Assembly: GCA_013289585.1 (NCBI GenBank)
Contig: JABCZR010000019.1
Location: 1-64,000 of the forward strand
Length of the DNA stretch: 64,000 nt
Direction of reading: 5' to 3'
From: Acidobacteriota bacterium
Lineage (GTDB): Bacteria; Acidobacteriota; Terriglobia; Acidiferrales; UBA7541
Part shown: positions 1 to 8,516 of the stretch, in pieces
Layout: each line of letters begins with the position of its first letter
Position numbering within the stretch: the first letter of the stretch is position 1
Program-made: the position numbers and the translations under genes
The notes under the pieces: generated by a model
Told to the model about the DNA's origin: nothing
The model's input: the letters and a program-made list of their open reading frames with translations, nothing else
Database searches by the model: none

Positions 1-827
1 AATTTCGCAATTACCGCCCCCAGATGCCCCGGCTCGCAATGCGTAATCGCCAGCTCCCCGCCAGTAATCGCCCCCGCCACCAAAAAAGTTCCCGCCTCGA
101 TCCTGTCCGGAATCACCATATGCTCCGTCCCGTGCAGTTCCTTCACGCCTCGAATCCGCAGCGTCGACGTCCCATCCCCGCAAATCTCCGCCCCCATTTT
201 CCTCAACATCACCACCAAATCCGTCACTTCCGGCTCCCGCGCCGCGTTCTCCAATACCGTCTCCCCCTCTGCCAGCGCCGCCGCCATCAAAATATTTTCC
301 GTCCCCGTCACCGTAATTTTCTCGAAATGAATCCGAGCGCCCTTCAACCGCCTGCCCTTGTGCCCATTCCCCCGCACCTTCGCCTCAATATATCCGTGCG
401 AAGTCGTGATCTCCGCTCCCATCTGCTCCAGCGCCTTCAAATGCAAATCGATCGGCCGCGCCCCAATCGCGCATCCGCCCGGCAACGACACTCGCGCCAC
501 TCCCTTCCGCGCCATCAGCGGCCCCAGCGTCAGGATCGACGCCCGCATCGTCTTCACCAGTTCATATGGCGCCTCCGTATGGTTCAAGCTCGGCGCCTGA
601 ATCACGTAATCGCTCGCCGGCACCTCTGCCACCGAAACCTTCGCGTCCATAAACGCCAACAGCTTGCTCATCGTGATCAGGTCGCGCACCTTCGGAATGT
701 TGTGCAGCGTCACCGGCTCCGCCGTCAGCAGCGCCGCCGCCATCACCGGAAGCGCCGAATTCTTCGCCCCGCTGATCGCCACCGTCCCCCGCAGCGCCTT
801 CCCGCCCTGAATCAGAAACTTATCCAT
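1..827 (-). CDS. murA: UDP-N-acetylglucosamine 1-carboxyvinyltransferase, C-terminus cut by window edge
   Basis: MurA transfers enolpyruvate from PEP to UDP-GlcNAc, the first committed cytoplasmic step of peptidoglycan synthesis. Reading from the ATG whose A is at 827, the protein starts [20 protein letters not shown] and continues with the substrate-binding KN pair ([15 protein letters not shown]). The loop [14 protein letters not shown] carries the catalytic Cys that is the fosfomycin target in this family. About 275 codons are present of a usual 420 or so, so the gene runs off the left edge. It lies upstream of nothing else visible on this strand except murQ, which is 174 bases behind it in the same direction. 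The gap between the two holds three dispersed repeats, so a shared transcript is possible but not shown. Family assignment is secure. Confidence 0.95.
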
Positions 828-877
828 TCCGCCTCTCGCCTCTCCCTCGTCCCAGAACCGCGGCCTTCCGCCGCCCA

Positions 878-911
878 TTTTGGAGTGCGGCAGCTTGCTG
901 CCGCTTTTCCG
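878..911 (+). repeat. Palindromic repeat, family A (copy 1)
   Basis: Core TTTTGGAGTGCGG, a short stem-loop (GCAGCTTGCTGC), then CCGCTTTTCCG. Five further copies lie at 3529-3563, 52949-52983, 53023-53060 (inverted), 59561-59593 (inverted) and 60815-60849 (inverted). The ends are conserved while the stem changes in a compensating way, as in REP-like elements. This copy lies between murA and murQ. Confidence 0.8.
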
Positions 912-976: not shown

Positions 977-1020
977 TCTCTGTGACCTCTGCGTCTCTGC
1001 GTTAGGTTCTTTCCTTTAGC
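977..1020 (+). repeat. Pyrimidine-rich repeat, family B (copy 1)
   Basis: Contains CCTCTGCGTCTCTGCGTTAG followed by TTC/TTT-rich sequence. A second copy is at 3690-3740 just before murU. This copy overlaps the last codons and the stop codon of murQ on the opposite strand. Confidence 0.6.
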
Positions 1021-1910
1021 GCTTTCCGCAAATTCCCCTTTGCAATTCTCAATTTCTTTTTTGTCCCCGATGCGCTTGCTCCCTCCTTCAACATCACCAG
1101 CGCCACTCGCATATCGTGTCCCCCCGCCCGCAAAGCGTCTCCCGCCACGGACACACTCTTCCCGCTAGCCTCCGCCAGGATCCGCAGCGCTCGCCCTGCA
1201 AGCTTCTCATTCGTCAGCATCATGTCGATCATCAAGTTCTCATACACATGTCCCAGCCTCGCCATCACCGCTGTACTCAGCATGTTCAGCACCATCTTTT
1301 GCGACGTCCCCGCCTTCAACCGCGTCGACCCCGTCAGCACTTCCGGCCCCACCTCCGGCGCAATCATGATCTTCGCCAGCCGTCCCACCGGCACCCGCAA
1401 ATTCGACGTCACCGCCACCGTCGTCGCCCCGCGCTTCCGCGCAAACCGCAGCGCCCCCAGCACGTACGGCGTCGTCCCGCTCGCCGCAATTCCCACCACC
1501 ACGTCCTTCCGAGTCATTCGAATCGCCCGCAAATCCCGCTCCCCGTTCCGCTCCGAATCCTCCGCCCCTTCAACCGCTCGCGTAATCGCTCGCCTTCCTC
1601 CCGCAATCAACGCCCGCACCAGTTTCGGCGAAATCCCAAACGTCGGCGGACACTCCGCCGCATCCAGCACACCCATCCGCCCGCTCGATCCCGCCCCCAC
1701 ATAAATCAATCGCCCGCCCTTTCGAATCCGGGCGACAATCGCATCCACCGCCCGCGCAATCGCCGGAATCTCCCGCCCCACCGCCGCCGCCACGTTGCCA
1801 TCCTCGCGATTCATCAACCGCACAATCTCCAGCGCCGTCATTCGGTCGAGCTTCCTCGACGCCGCATTCCTTTGTTCCGTGTTCCTAAGTTCTCTAGTTC
1901 GAGAGGGCAT
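1002..1910 (-). CDS. murQ: N-acetylmuramic acid 6-phosphate etherase
   Basis: MurQ cleaves the lactyl ether of MurNAc-6-phosphate to give GlcNAc-6-phosphate and D-lactate, the key catabolic step in recycling of the muramyl sugar. The 302-residue protein shows the SIS fold: GGRLIYVGAGSSGRMGVLDA near the N-terminus, the family motif AECPPTFG, then GIAASGTTPYV and GSTRLKAGTSQKMVLNM. The ATG at 1910 (MPSRTRELRNTEQRN) is preferred; an in-frame upstream ATG at 1949 would add 13 residues unlike the family. A TATAAT sits directly upstream of the chosen start, so the message may be leaderless. The last codons and stop come from a dispersed repeat (977-1020). Neighbours amgK-like and murU-like genes belong to the same recycling theme. 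Confidence 0.93.
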   Translation of the reverse strand: MPSRTRELRNTEQRNAASRKLDRMTALEIVRLMNREDGNVAAAVGREIPAIARAVDAIVARIRKGGRLIYVGAGSSGRMGVLDAAECPPTFGISPKLVRALIAGGRRAITRAVEGAEDSERNGERDLRAIRMTRKDVVVGIAASGTTPYVLGALRFARKRGATTVAVTSNLRVPVGRLAKIMIAPEVGPEVLTGSTRLKAGTSQKMVLNMLSTAVMARLGHVYENLMIDMMLTNEKLAGRALRILAEASGKSVSVAGDALRAGGHDMRVALVMLKEGASASGTKKKLRIAKGNLRKALKERT

Positions 1911-1916
1911 CAAGGC

Positions 1917-1922
1917 ATTATA
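1917..1922 (-). promoter_or_regulatory. Possible -10 element for murQ
   Basis: On the minus strand TATAAT ends six bases before the ATG of murQ, the distance expected between a -10 box and a transcription start. Transcription would then begin at or next to the start codon. No good -35 hexamer is visible, so this is tentative. Confidence 0.35.
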
Positions 1923-2074
1923 CAGACCGCCGAAAATCTCACGCAGCACAGCGGATCCTGGCTGTGCGCTTCAGACACGTGCAACCGGCTTAGCAACACA
2001 CTCTCAACCGAGCGAATCTCTTTGTCAAAAATCAGTTATGTTAGGGAAGCTTCGAAACGGAATATCTGGAACCC

Positions 2075-3508
2075 ATGTCGATAGACGTTCTAAAAAAACT
2101 CTTCGAGCAGCACTTCCACGCGCCTCCATCGCGCGTTCAGCCGCTCCAGGGCGAGCTCGGCGGCTCCGGCCGCAAAATCATCCGCCTCTCCAACGAAAAA
2201 TCCACCGCCATCGGCATCCTCTACGGTGTGCGCGAAGAAAACGTCGCCTTCCTCGAATTCTCCAAGCATTTTCGCCGCCACGGTCTCCCCGTCCCCCAAA
2301 TCTACGCCGAAGACCTCTCCCACGGCGCCTATCTCCAGGAAGACCTCGGCGACACCACGCTCTTCGAATTCCTCTCCAAACATCGCACCGGCACGGACAT
2401 CGCCCCCGAAGTCGTCGAAGCCTATCGCAAAGTCGTCGCCGTCCTGCCGCGCTTCCAGATCGAAGCCGGCCTCGATCTGAACTACAAAGTCTGCTATCCC
2501 ATTTCCAGCTTCGATCGTCAGTCCATCGCCTGGGATTTGAACTATTTCAAATACTATTTTCTTCGCCTCGCCGGCATTCCCTTCAACGAGCAAGCCCTCG
2601 AAGACGATTTCAGCCGCCTCACCGATTTCCTCCTCAGCGCCCCGCGCGATTATTTCCTCTACCGCGACTTCCAGTCCCGCAACATCATGCTCCGCAACGG
2701 CGATCCTTTTTTTGTCGACTATCAAGGCGGCCGCAAAGGCGCTCTGCAATACGACATCGCCTCGCTCCTCTACGACGCCAAAGCCGACCTGCCCCCCGAA
2801 CTTCGCCAGCAACTTCTCGATCACTATCTCGACCGCCTCGCCGGTTTCATCCAGCTCGATCGCGAACCCTTCCTCCAGTATTACTACGCCTACGTTTTCG
2901 TCCGCATCATGCAAGCCCTCGGCGCTTACGGCTTCCGCGGCTTCTACGAACGCAAAGCCCATTTCCTCCAAAGTGTTCCCTACGCCCTGAAAAATCTTCG
3001 CTGGCTCCTCCACAACGTCCGCCTGCCCATCGAGCTGCCCACTCTCATGGCGGCGTTTCACAGCATGCTGGCCTCGGAAAAATTGCAGGCCCTCGCCGCG
3101 GAAACCGAAAACCTCGTCGTGCGCATTTTCAGCTTCTCTTTTCACCAATCCTTGCCCGCCGACGAAACCGGCAACGGCGGCGGCTTCGTCTTCGATGGCC
3201 GCAGCCTCCCCAACCCCGGCCGCGAAGAACAATTCAAATTTCTCACCGGCAAAGACGCCCCGGTCATCGAATATCTCCAGCAACAGGAAACCGTTCACCA
3301 GTTTTTCGCCAGCGTCCTCTCCCTCGTCGACGCCTGCATCACCACCTACCAATCCCGCCATTTCAAAAATCTAATGGTCTCCTTCGGTTGCACCGGCGGC
3401 CAGCACCGCTCCGTCTACCTCGCCGAACAACTAGCCAAGCGCCTCCGCCCGCGCCCCGGCCTCGAAGTTGTCCTCCGCCACCTCGAACTCGAGAAGCAGG
3501 GCAAATGA
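2075..3508 (+). CDS. AmgK-like amino-sugar kinase fused to a RapZ C-terminal domain
   Basis: Two-domain protein of 477 residues. Residues 1-330 are an aminoglycoside-phosphotransferase fold of the COG3178/AmgK type: catalytic loop YRDFQSRN (D198, N203; the usual His is Tyr196) and metal-binding VDYQGG (D215), followed by the AmgK-like stretch ALQYDIASLLYD. AmgK phosphorylates MurNAc or GlcNAc at C1. Residues 346-475 match the C-terminal domain of RapZ, with VSFGCTGGQHRSVYLAE; in E. coli that domain binds glucosamine-6-phosphate and the sRNA GlmZ. The N-terminal P-loop ATPase part of RapZ is absent. The next gene downstream encodes a MurU-type nucleotidyltransferase, the natural partner of AmgK. 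The function as a sugar-1-kinase is inferred from fold and neighbours; a regulatory role for the RapZ part is a hypothesis. Confidence 0.85.
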   Translation: MSIDVLKKLFEQHFHAPPSRVQPLQGELGGSGRKIIRLSNEKSTAIGILYGVREENVAFLEFSKHFRRHGLPVPQIYAEDLSHGAYLQEDLGDTTLFEFLSKHRTGTDIAPEVVEAYRKVVAVLPRFQIEAGLDLNYKVCYPISSFDRQSIAWDLNYFKYYFLRLAGIPFNEQALEDDFSRLTDFLLSAPRDYFLYRDFQSRNIMLRNGDPFFVDYQGGRKGALQYDIASLLYDAKADLPPELRQQLLDHYLDRLAGFIQLDREPFLQYYYAYVFVRIMQALGAYGFRGFYERKAHFLQSVPYALKNLRWLLHNVRLPIELPTLMAAFHSMLASEKLQALAAETENLVVRIFSFSFHQSLPADETGNGGGFVFDGRSLPNPGREEQFKFLTGKDAPVIEYLQQQETVHQFFASVLSLVDACITTYQSRHFKNLMVSFGCTGGQHRSVYLAEQLAKRLRPRPGLEVVLRHLELEKQGK

Positions 3509-3528: not shown

Positions 3529-3563
3529 TTTTGGAGTGCGGGAGCAAAGCTCCCGCTTTTCCG
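3529..3563 (+). repeat. Palindromic repeat, family A (copy 2)
   Basis: TTTTGGAGTGCGGGAGC, loop, then GCTCCCGCTTTTCCG. Same ends as the copy at 878-911, with a GGGAGC/GCTCCC stem instead of GGCAGC/GCTGCC. It lies 21 bases after the amgK-like stop codon and could act as a processing or termination hairpin. Confidence 0.8.
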
Positions 3564-3689
3564 TCCTCCGACACGTCTGCAAACGACCTCGATTGCAATC
3601 GCGTCGCATTTCCGTAATCTACCCACATCTCTATTCTCCGTGCTCTCGATGCCCCCCGTGTTCTCTGTCTTAATTCTTTCTTTGTCCCG

Positions 3690-3740
3690 TTTTCCTCTGC
3701 GTCTCTGCAACCTCTGCGTTAGTTCCTTTTCTTCGCTTTT
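3690..3740 (+). repeat. Pyrimidine-rich repeat, family B (copy 2)
   Basis: Contains CCTCTGCGTCTCTGC and CCTCTGCGTTAGTTCC, matching 977-1020. It ends about 12 bases before the murU-like start codon, so it forms part of that leader. Confidence 0.6.
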
Positions 3741-3752
3741 TCCGGCGCTCCC

Positions 3753-4577
3753 ATGAAAGCCATGATTCTAGCCGCCGGCCTCGGCACCCGCCTCAAACCC
3801 CTCACCGACTCCCGCCCCAAAGCCCTCGTTGAAATCAACAACCGCACCCTCCTCGAAATCACCCTCACCCGCCTCCGCGCCTTCGGCATCACCGAAGTCA
3901 TCATCAACGTCCACCACTTCGCCGATCAAATCGTCGCCTACCTGCGCTCCAAAAATTATTTCAACCTGCGCATCGAAGTCTCCCGCGAAGACGACCTCCT
4001 CCTCGACACCGGCGGCGGCCTGAAAAAAGCCTCCTGGTTTTTCCTCGAAGATCCAAAAAGTCTCGACGAGCCCTTCCTCCTCCACAACGTCGACGTCCTC
4101 AGCACCATCGACTTCACTCGCATGCTCCAATTCCACGAAGACCATCACACCCTCGCCACCCTCGCCGTCCAATCCCGCCCCTCCGGGCGCCAACTCCTCT
4201 TCGACGACCATCTCCAACTCCACGCCCGCGCCGCGAGCCCAGCCCAAATAGCAGAAGCTAGTCATTCCGAGCGCAGCGCGCATTCTGCGCTTCGGACGAA
4301 TTTGCGGAGCGAGGAATCCGCTTCTTCCGTATCCCAGCCCGAGCCCCTCCAACCCCTCGCCTTCTCCGGCATCCACCTCATCTCCCCCCGCCTCCTCCCC
4401 CTCCTCACCGAAACCGGCCCCTTCTCCATCATCGATTCCTACCTTCGACTCGCCGCCCAAGGCCAAAAAATCCTCGCCTTCCGCTCCGACCAATACTACT
4501 GGCGCGACCTCGGCCGCCCCGCCGACCTCACCCAAGCCGCCCTCGACCTGGAAAGCGGGTTGCGTGCCGAAGACTGA
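3753..4577 (+). CDS. murU: MurU-type sugar-1-phosphate nucleotidyltransferase
   Basis: Nucleotidyltransferase of the RmlA/GlmU-like fold, 274 residues. The signature is AAGLGTRLKPLTDSRPKAL (residues 7-25), followed by the metal-binding HNVDVLS and the sugar-site GGGLKKA. In Pseudomonas MurU makes UDP-MurNAc from MurNAc-1-phosphate, bypassing de novo synthesis; placement directly behind an AmgK-like kinase argues for that role here. A 60-base dispersed repeat (4261-4320) is inserted in frame, adding about 20 residues (170-189) just before the conserved AFSGIHLISPRLLPLL strand. The frame is kept, so the protein may still fold with an enlarged loop. A mannose-1-phosphate guanylyltransferase-like activity is the alternative reading. 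Confidence 0.82.
   Translation: MKAMILAAGLGTRLKPLTDSRPKALVEINNRTLLEITLTRLRAFGITEVIINVHHFADQIVAYLRSKNYFNLRIEVSREDDLLLDTGGGLKKASWFFLEDPKSLDEPFLLHNVDVLSTIDFTRMLQFHEDHHTLATLAVQSRPSGRQLLFDDHLQLHARAASPAQIAEASHSERSAHSALRTNLRSEESASSVSQPEPLQPLAFSGIHLISPRLLPLLTETGPFSIIDSYLRLAAQGQKILAFRSDQYYWRDLGRPADLTQAALDLESGLRAED
4261..4320 (+). repeat. Repeat of the GTCATTCCGAGCG...GAGGAATCC type inside murU
   Basis: Starts GTCATTCCGAGCGCAGCG and ends GCGGAGCGAGGAATCCG, with a short palindrome (GCGCATTCTGCGC) between. This element type is normally intergenic in many soil and sediment bacteria. At 60 bases it keeps the murU reading frame open. Confidence 0.7.
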
Positions 4578-4703
4578 CATCTCGTTTGACTCCCTAAGCC
4601 GCAATCCTTGCCAGTAATCGCGGCCTTGCGCTACCCTTCAGCACTCAATCCCAATATGGCGCGCGCAAACAAACTTCTGGACCAGATTCTAAGAGGCGAG
4701 TCG

Positions 4704-4913
4704 ATGCCTAGATACGAAATCATCATCTTTTGGAGTCAGGCCGACGAAGCCTTTATCGCCGAAGTCCTCGAACTCCCCGGCTGCGCCGCCGACGGAAAGA
4801 CCTACAAAGAAGCTCTCGCCAACGTGGAACTCATCGTTCAGGAATGGCTCGAAACCGCAAAAGAACTCGGCCGCCCCATCCCCGCTCCGCGCGGCCGCCT
4901 CGCCTTCGCTTAA
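4704..4913 (+). CDS. HicB-family antitoxin, apparently orphan
   Basis: Sixty-nine residues starting MPRYEIIIFWSQADEAFIAE, then VLELPGCAADGKTYKEAL, the partial RNase H-like fold of HicB antitoxins that normally neutralise the HicA mRNA interferase. The ATG at 4704 is preceded by AGAGGCGAG, a usable ribosome-binding site. Upstream in the same frame, from an ATG at 4656, is MARANKLLDQILRGES, which resembles the start of HicA-type toxins (KLLEKILRG...). No further toxin sequence follows, so the toxin seems to have been deleted down to its first 15 or so codons. Read as one ORF from 4656 the product would be 85 residues. No DNA-binding C-terminal domain is present. Confidence 0.7.
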   Translation: MPRYEIIIFWSQADEAFIAEVLELPGCAADGKTYKEALANVELIVQEWLETAKELGRPIPAPRGRLAFA

Positions 4914-7389: not shown

Positions 7390-7677
7390 ATGGGCAGGAA
7401 ACCACGCGTAGATCGATCCCCGGAAGAGAAGTGGCAGATCGTGCAGGAAGGCATCAAGAGCGGGAACGTCTCTGAGACATGTCGGCGTCACGCGATCGCT
7501 CCGAATCTGTTCTATCGCTGGAAGGATGAAGCGGAACAGGGAGCGAAGGCAGCGCTTGGGGGGAGAAGCGCTGCCGCGGCGGAAACTGAGAAAGACCATC
7601 GCATCCGGCAGTTGGAACGAACGCTGGGGCGGAAGTCGCTGGAAATCGAAATCCTAAAAAACGTCGTGGGGGAGTGA
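7390..7677 (+). CDS. IS3-family transposase OrfA (helix-turn-helix)
   Basis: 95 residues: MGRKPRVDRSPEEKWQIVQE, a helix-turn-helix (GNVSETCRRHAIAPNLFYRW), then a leucine-zipper-like tail (IRQLERTLGRKSLEIEILK). OrfA binds the element ends and represses or guides transposition. The sequence A_AAA_AAC at 7656-7662 lies in the right phase for a -1 shift into orfB, which would give the OrfAB transposase. The ORF ends in GTGA overlapping the orfB start. Confidence 0.92.
   Translation: MGRKPRVDRSPEEKWQIVQEGIKSGNVSETCRRHAIAPNLFYRWKDEAEQGAKAALGGRSAAAAETEKDHRIRQLERTLGRKSLEIEILKNVVGE
7656..7662 (+). promoter_or_regulatory. Putative programmed -1 frameshift site A_AAA_AAC
   Basis: In the orfA frame the codons read CTA AAA AAC, giving the classical X_XXY_YYZ heptamer A_AAA_AAC. 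Slippage by -1 continues CCT AAA AAA CGT into the orfB frame, which is open through this point. Confidence 0.75.
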
Positions 7678-8516
7678 ACTGTGGTGCGGTTCACTCCCAG
7701 GCACGAGAGATGGTGACGCTGGCGATCAGCCGGTCGAGTCTGTATTACCGGAAGCGGCCGAGAGGCAGCCGGGCTGACCGGACCTACGATGAGCAGATCG
7801 TGATGGCGTGCGGGGAGAAGTTGGCGTACGGCTATCGGCGAGTGACGTGGTGGCTACAGCGGAAGAAAGGGCTACCCGTGAATCGCAAGCGAGTGTTACG
7901 AGTGATGCGAGAACGTGGGTTGCTGGTGCGCTCGCGTCGTCTGCGCGCACGACGGAAGAAAGACTGGGGCCGCGTGGAAGCAGCCGAGCCGAATCAGATC
8001 TGGCAGTCGGACATGACAAAGATCTGGGCAGGTCCTGCAGTGGGTTGGGCGTACTTGGTATGCGTGATCGACTGCTGTACGCGGGAGATCGTGGGGTGGA
8101 ATCTCTCGCATCGCTGTCGGACCGAAGACGCGCTCATAGCGGTGGAGCAGGCCGTGCTGGAACGGTTGCCCGAAGGTAGCCGCGAGGAAAACGTGACGCT
8201 GACGACGGATAACGGAACGCAGTTCACCTCCTCGCGCTTCCTGGAGACGTTGGGGCGGCTCGGCATCACCCATCGGCGGACGGCGTATCATCACCCGGAA
8301 GGCAACAGCTACATCGAACGATTCCATCGCAGCCTGAAAGAAGAAGAAGTCTGGACGGCGGAGTATCGAAGCTTGGAAGAAGCGCGAGCATCGATCGCTC
8401 GTTGGATCGAGGAGTACAATCACGACCGGCCTCACCGCGGAGTCGGAAATCGCACTCCGCACGAGGCCTTCTTGGCTTTCGCAGGTGTACTAAAAAATGA
8501 GGCCCTGACTGTCTAA
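7674..8516 (+). CDS. IS3-family transposase OrfB (DDE integrase core)
   Basis: 280 residues counted from the GTG at 7674. The N-terminal part has the HTH_21-like KLAYGYRRVTWWLQ; the catalytic core shows the DDE triad: QSDMTKIW (first Asp), TTDNGTQFTS (second Asp) and NSYIERFHRSLKEEE (Glu). It is probably made mainly as an OrfAB fusion by frameshifting. It ends 19 bases before the right inverted repeat tip. Confidence 0.93.
   Translation: MNCGAVHSQAREMVTLAISRSSLYYRKRPRGSRADRTYDEQIVMACGEKLAYGYRRVTWWLQRKKGLPVNRKRVLRVMRERGLLVRSRRLRARRKKDWGRVEAAEPNQIWQSDMTKIWAGPAVGWAYLVCVIDCCTREIVGWNLSHRCRTEDALIAVEQAVLERLPEGSREENVTLTTDNGTQFTSSRFLETLGRLGITHRRTAYHHPEGNSYIERFHRSLKEEEVWTAEYRSLEEARASIARWIEEYNHDRPHRGVGNRTPHEAFLAFAGVLKNEALTV

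Follow-up and report, generated by a model that had tools for sequence, protein, structure and literature searches.

RapZ is known from Escherichia coli and, as YvcJ, from Bacillus subtilis, while AmgK is the anomeric MurNAc/GlcNAc kinase of Pseudomonas and Caulobacter. In the GlmS/GlmY/GlmZ/RapZ system of E. coli, the RapZ domain exerts its effect by way of small RNAs and a two-component system. When isolated, this C-terminal domain binds glucosamine-6-phosphate with a KD of 10 nM (PMC7073468), and it has been proposed to be re-purposed from a sugar-phosphate enzyme (PMC5737377). In muramic acid recycling, AnmK yields MurNAc-6P, which is either degraded by MurQ or recycled to UDP-MurNAc by MupP, AmgK and MurU, thereby bypassing MurA (PMC5371407, PMC13046382).

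Here we describe a gene, found in a 64,000-nucleotide stretch of DNA from a soil acidobacterium (the window), that joins an AmgK-like kinase to a RapZ C-terminal domain. The protein shares with AmgK the APH fold, the catalytic residues and the pairing with MurU, and differs from it by the added C-terminal domain and by a gene order in which the kinase precedes MurU. With the E. coli system it would share the sensor domain and the metabolic pool, that of glucosamine-6-phosphate, although its domain is attached to the enzyme itself.

Architecture and distribution of the fusion

The gene and its kinase motifs are located as follows.

2075..3508, + strand: fusion gene of 477 aa in a single unbroken frame, AmgK-like kinase and RapZ C-terminal domain
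2075..3091, + strand: kinase half with APH fold, residues 1-339 (PF01636 and structure match to 3csv)
2660..2683, + strand: catalytic loop YRDFQSRN, residues 196-203, with D198 and N203 (motif conservation)
2717..2740, + strand: metal-binding motif DYQGGRKG, residues 215-222, with D215 (invariant residues, both phyla)
3110..3496, + strand: RapZ C-terminal domain, residues 346-474 (PF22740 and match to 5o5s)

Pfam assigns residues 56-252 to the APH family PF01636 (E 5.8e-13, 49.6 bits, cut-off 23.2) and residues 348-472 to the RapZ C-terminal domain PF22740 (E 7.3e-33, 113.8 bits, cut-off 27), and both families are present in 48/48 aligned orthologs. By sequence, the nearest solved structures are E. 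coli RapZ (5o5o, 5o5s) for residues 324-475 and the APH structure 3csv for residues 12-307. An AlphaFold2 model of the fusion was built from 48 orthologs (mean pLDDT 84.8); its residues 346-474 superimpose on the E. coli RapZ C-terminal domain 5o5s with a Z of 20.1 and an rmsd of 1.5 Å over 123 residues (40% identity), and its residues 1-342 on 3csv with a Z of 24.2 at 3.1 Å over 300 residues. The NCBIfam RapZ model PRK05416 aligned through its C-terminal half alone (positions 146-276 of 278, to residues 335-470), with a score of 110 bits, below the cut-off of 244. The P-loop ATPase half of RapZ is thus absent, residues 1-342 matching an APH kinase instead.

The fusion of kinase and RapZ domain is therefore real, as Pfam, the solved-structure searches and the AlphaFold model concur. 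It had been proposed in the first-pass annotation, made from the letters alone, with coordinates that are exact to the base and with the ATPase half correctly noted as missing; residues 346-475, whose placement in another family would have refuted the proposal, fall in PF22740 and adopt the RapZ C-terminal fold. Chance or mis-assembly was ruled out by the same layout in 80 acidobacterial orthologs and in Bacteroidales homologs.

The kinase half has an AmgK-type APH fold in which the catalytic Asp and Asn and the metal Asp are all present. The loop YRDFQSRN is found in 80/81 acidobacterial fusions, D198 and N203 are invariant in all 81 and in both phyla, and D215, Q217, G218, G219, R220 and G222 are invariant across Acidobacteriota and Bacteroidota. 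The fusion motifs read YRDF and DxQGGRKG, whereas those of AmgK read HRD(F/Y/L) and mostly DFQDARxG. AmgK is the best NCBIfam family for this kinase despite a score far below the cut-off: NF045698 aligns to residues 58-313 (E 9e-17), and the fusion reaches 61.3 of 500 bits and 46.8 of 550 bits for the equivalog models NF045698 and NF045759, respectively. The stand-alone acidobacterial kinases tested also score below these cut-offs. The fusion is thus classed neither as AmgK, by the NCBIfam equivalog test, nor, its ATPase half being absent, as RapZ. It is probably a MurNAc/GlcNAc 1-kinase, and most likely works like AmgK with an added sensor.

A scan of bacterial genomes gave 194 relatives, of which the best 80 are all full fusions with 74-87% identity, nearly all from Acidobacteriota. 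Among 297 genomes sampled from the phylum, six carry the fusion, all in the window's own class; in most genomes of the other acidobacterial classes, an AmgK-like kinase (about 26-35% identity) stands alone and RapZ is encoded separately. Full-length homologs with 37-43% identity occur in Bacteroides finegoldii, Parabacteroides distasonis, Phocaeicola massiliensis and a Prevotella, and no PF22740 match was found in the control genome Bacteroides ihuae. Viral contigs scanned with the fusion profile gave no relative, and full-length matches in a collection labelled as phages are unannotated gut scaffolds, which we read as bacterial chromosome.

The stand-alone acidobacterial AmgK-like kinases (L123-L146), whose kinase is 28-35% identical, have a MurU-like gene nearby in 20/24 cases. 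Unlike the fusion they have no RapZ domain, and any RapZ that accompanies them has a gene of its own. The two closest to the fusion kinase (L123, L124) belong to an acidobacterial family in which no RapZ domain was found, and directly adjoin a DUF4922-SpoIID protein (L156:7044-9482; L157:7039-9747, - strand).

Pocket and ancestry of the RapZ-type domain

In E. coli RapZ, sulphate or malonate is gripped by the side chains of H190, H252 and R253 and by the backbone of T248 and G249 (PMC5737377). We compared the corresponding residues in 85 fusions, of which 80 are acidobacterial and 5 of Bacteroidota type, and in 31 canonical acidobacterial RapZs. Three segments stand out.

3170..3184, + strand: GNGGG insertion, residues 366-370, present in fusions and absent from aligned canonical RapZs
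3212..3223, + strand: NPGR, residues 380-383, replacing NP-H190-W191 of E. coli RapZ (alignment)
3389..3412, + strand: CTGGQHRS, residues 439-446, equivalents of RapZ C247, T248, G249, H252 and R253 (alignment; pocket per PMC5737377, PMC9841335)

Four of the five pocket positions (T248, G249, H252, R253) are retained in 85/85 fusions, and the fifth, H190, is G in every one of them, against H/Y in the 31 canonical RapZs. At the adjacent W191 position all 85 have R or K, where the canonical proteins have F/Y. The C, T, G, H, R and S of the CTGG-HRS cradle are invariant throughout the fusions, as are R184 and the residues of the dimer strand, F181 and D182; the fusions also lack the basic tail of RapZ. 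With H190 replaced by G in every fusion, the ligand may differ from that of E. coli RapZ, or be absent. Altogether, the residue pattern fits a dimeric phosphate-binding domain whose sugar-side pocket has changed and whose RNA surface is weakened. Glucosamine-6-phosphate itself, which the first-pass annotation had put forward, is a rather doubtful candidate ligand.

Phylogenetic trees separate the fused RapZ domains, as a single clade, from every canonical RapZ domain (support 100/99), and the fused kinases likewise group in a single clade (100/98); the rooting is uncertain because some branches are long. A recent fusion with the genome's own RapZ was ruled out, the domain of the latter being only about one third identical and placed in the other clade. 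In one genome (G305), the kinase (L161:2407-3453; G305:C70:69906-70952) stops at about residue 348, without a RapZ domain, and the kinase stop codon and the MurU ATG overlap (GCATGAAG; overlap ATGA). A second genome of the same genus, G330, has the same kinase end and has kept MurU, on a contig fragment. The G305 kinase is nested in the fusion clade, and both the Bacteroidota fusions and a divergent group of acidobacterial fusions (49-52% identical) fall outside it; the RapZ domain was thus lost secondarily, with kinase and MurU retained. That a kinase can be maintained without the domain argues for a regulatory or structural accessory and against a part of the active site; the accessory is probably regulatory.

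The structural option would make the RapZ domain a mere dimerisation or stability module, with neither ligand binding nor control of the kinase. This would agree with the invariance of the positions that correspond to F181 and D182 of the E. coli dimer, with the loss of H190 and with the genus that manages without the domain, but an invariant CTGG-HRS cradle in 85/85 fusions is beyond what a dimer module needs, and the conservation of GNGGG and NPG(R/K) in fusions of both phyla points to a specific pocket. We therefore regard such a module as unlikely, and the RapZ-type domain as a fairly probable ligand-binding regulatory domain.

The MurU partner and a predicted role in salvage

The fusion lies between genes of peptidoglycan metabolism.

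3..878, - strand: MurA, cut by the contig start (PRK09369, 357 bits, cut-off 297)
1002..1949, - strand: MurQ, N-acetylmuramic acid 6-phosphate etherase, divergent upstream neighbour (TIGR00274, 369 bits, cut-off 302)
3538..3556, + strand: terminator-like hairpin with 8 bp stem, 3-base loop and TTTT, in the gap from the fusion to the MurU-like gene
3753..4577, + strand: MurU-like sugar-1-phosphate uridylyltransferase (top NCBIfam family MurU, 118.8 bits, cut-off 250)

All four genes, the kinase included, share one locus, in which the pair of kinase and MurU points away from MurA and MurQ. The position of the kinase beside MurU, already recognised in the first reading of the sequence, holds in two phyla: a MurU-like gene is directly downstream in 84/85 fusion loci, in most cases with an overlap or within 100 bp. 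A kinase of the fusion clade is present in 40/151 genomes of the window's class (a hand count from result tables) and is adjoined by a MurU-like gene in 40/40; outside these genomes the class sample holds one further strong MurU match, that of G330. When a second conserved neighbour was sought over the 85 fusion loci, none was found to be as constant, MurQ being present in 16/85 and MurA in 14/85. In the window, the gap between the fusion and the MurU-like gene is 245 bp and contains the hairpin; most relatives have the two genes coupled. The hairpin is weak evidence because the number found equals the shuffled expectation. The MurU-like gene of the window may have its own promoter.

Besides the locus, the genome encodes AnmK. 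Since AnmK is present and MurQ adjoins the fusion, MurNAc-6P is produced and can also be drawn off by a competing catabolic route. A protein search of the genome gave the fusion as its sole AmgK-like kinase, the other match being a normal RapZ.

The pair could also act on another sugar, such as heptose or plain GlcNAc, with another nucleotide sugar made by the partner and the domain still a phosphosugar sensor. Kinase and partner both score below the AmgK and MurU equivalog cut-offs, N-acetylhexosamine 1-kinase is among the structure matches of the AlphaFold2 model, and mannose-1-phosphate guanylyltransferases rank close behind MurU among the solved relatives of the partner. However, neither protein matches any family better than AmgK or MurU, respectively, the nearest solved relative of the partner is Pseudomonas putida MurU (4y7t) in both phyla, and MurQ and MurA are neighbours in the window's group, with AnmK in the genome. 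A different sugar is thus quite improbable.

We favour a role in muramic acid salvage. The kinase half would phosphorylate MurNAc, and perhaps also GlcNAc, at C1, and the MurU-like partner would convert the sugar-1-phosphate to UDP-MurNAc, bypassing MurA. The RapZ-type domain would dimerise the enzyme, and its CTGG-HR cradle may bind a phosphorylated amino sugar of the same pathway, the occupancy of which would alter kinase activity in one direction or the other. Salvage would then follow the amino-sugar pool with no RNA step, and a kinase reading amino-sugar phosphates could balance salvage against de novo synthesis or breakdown. For this proposal as a whole, a salvage kinase with a MurU partner regulated by a phosphosugar-binding RapZ-type domain, we consider the chances to be about even. 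More speculatively, and with little confidence, the pocket, with G at the H190 position and an invariant R/K beside it, might be re-tuned to the bulkier MurNAc-6-phosphate or GlcNAc-6-phosphate, making the kinase a valve at the branch point between MurU and MurQ. Such a valve would set the share of recovered muramic acid that goes back to UDP-MurNAc through MurU or to breakdown through MurQ, and would represent direct control of an enzyme by a domain known only from RNA regulation.

Some minor features were noted around the partner gene. The MurU-like protein has an insertion of about 40 residues (around residues 157-200; window 4225-4335) that is missing from most relatives. Segments 3615-3750 and 4225-4335 were considered as dispersed repeats and rejected, each having one copy in the genome. 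A short ORF after the MurU-like gene (window 4608-4913) has a weak, sub-threshold match to HicB-like/UPF0150 antitoxins, and an IS3-family transposase pair (orfA and orfB, window 7390-8516) occurs downstream, about 3 kb from the MurU-like gene.

RNA surface, relation to RapZ and naming

In RapZ, GlmZ is contacted by K170, R184, K194, R196, R211, R238 and K251 (PMC9841335). R184 is common to the fusions, as stated above, and positions 194 and 196 are mostly basic in them, but the R238 position is F in 85/85 fusions, against K/R in 31/31 canonical acidobacterial RapZs. The R211 position is mostly Q, D or E, and that of K170 mostly H in the acidobacterial fusions. The domain has a mean net charge of +2.9 in acidobacterial fusions and a net charge between -3 and 0 in those of Bacteroidota, compared with a mean of +5.1 in canonical acidobacterial RapZs. 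RNA binding by the fusion domain is therefore unlikely on residue grounds. That the domain acts as in RapZ, in an RNA-binding moonlighting enzyme that regulates a transcript such as glmS or murA, would be in line with RNA binding by the E. coli C-terminal domain alone (PMC5737377, PMC7073468), with the basic positions and mildly basic acidobacterial domains and with an RNase E/G in the genome, yet it is made very improbable by the changes at R238 and K170, by the neutral to acidic Bacteroidales domains, by the canonical RapZ present as well, and by an Rfam search of the first 12 kb of the window, in which no RNA family was found near the locus. An action independent of any sRNA, as the first-pass annotation had suggested, is plausible in view of the invariant F and of the charge of the Bacteroidales domains.

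The canonical RapZ of the window's genome is retained on another contig (C7), and the fusion does not replace it because both are present; replacement of RapZ by the fusion in Acidobacteriota was ruled out on this basis. The other fusion genomes of the phylum sample also show a second RapZ-domain match.

Two Bacteroidales fusions (L113:8001-9431, L114:8001-9431) bear the RefSeq name 'RNase adapter RapZ' though they have no ATPase half, and the next gene after both is a 'nucleotidyltransferase family protein' that is MurU-like. This name is likely misleading. The fusion is thus a new domain architecture made from known parts, already in databases under a misleading name. In our literature search no paper was found joining RapZ with AmgK or MurU, in agreement with the earlier statement that no experimental description was known; many subscription papers lie outside this search, and an earlier description there is possible.

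The architecture suggests that a recycling enzyme carries a sugar sensor of its own, and since the domain sits on a salvage enzyme that has a natural domain-less relative, control of an enzyme by ligand only becomes directly testable. Moreover, what RefSeq calls 'RNase adapter RapZ' in gut Bacteroides and Parabacteroides is probably a salvage kinase, a point that bears on peptidoglycan recycling in Bacteroidota. AmgK has been described in silico as missing from Porphyromonas gingivalis (PMC7670621), and such a report of absence in Bacteroidota might overlook the fused form.

RapZ-type domains were also observed in records labelled as phage. Rhizobium phage RHph_TM16 encodes a 109-residue stand-alone RapZ C-terminal domain (QIG66788.1; L155:3001-3330), annotated only as 'ATPase domain-containing protein' and adjoined by sugar-nucleotide genes (epimerase, aminotransferase). 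In the Microcystis phage MaAM05 record (L154:2536-4895), a complete RapZ-like gene precedes a 'gluconeogenesis factor' gene, perhaps YvcK/GlmR; the record also has pxpA and panB and, though phage-labelled, is possibly bacterial DNA.
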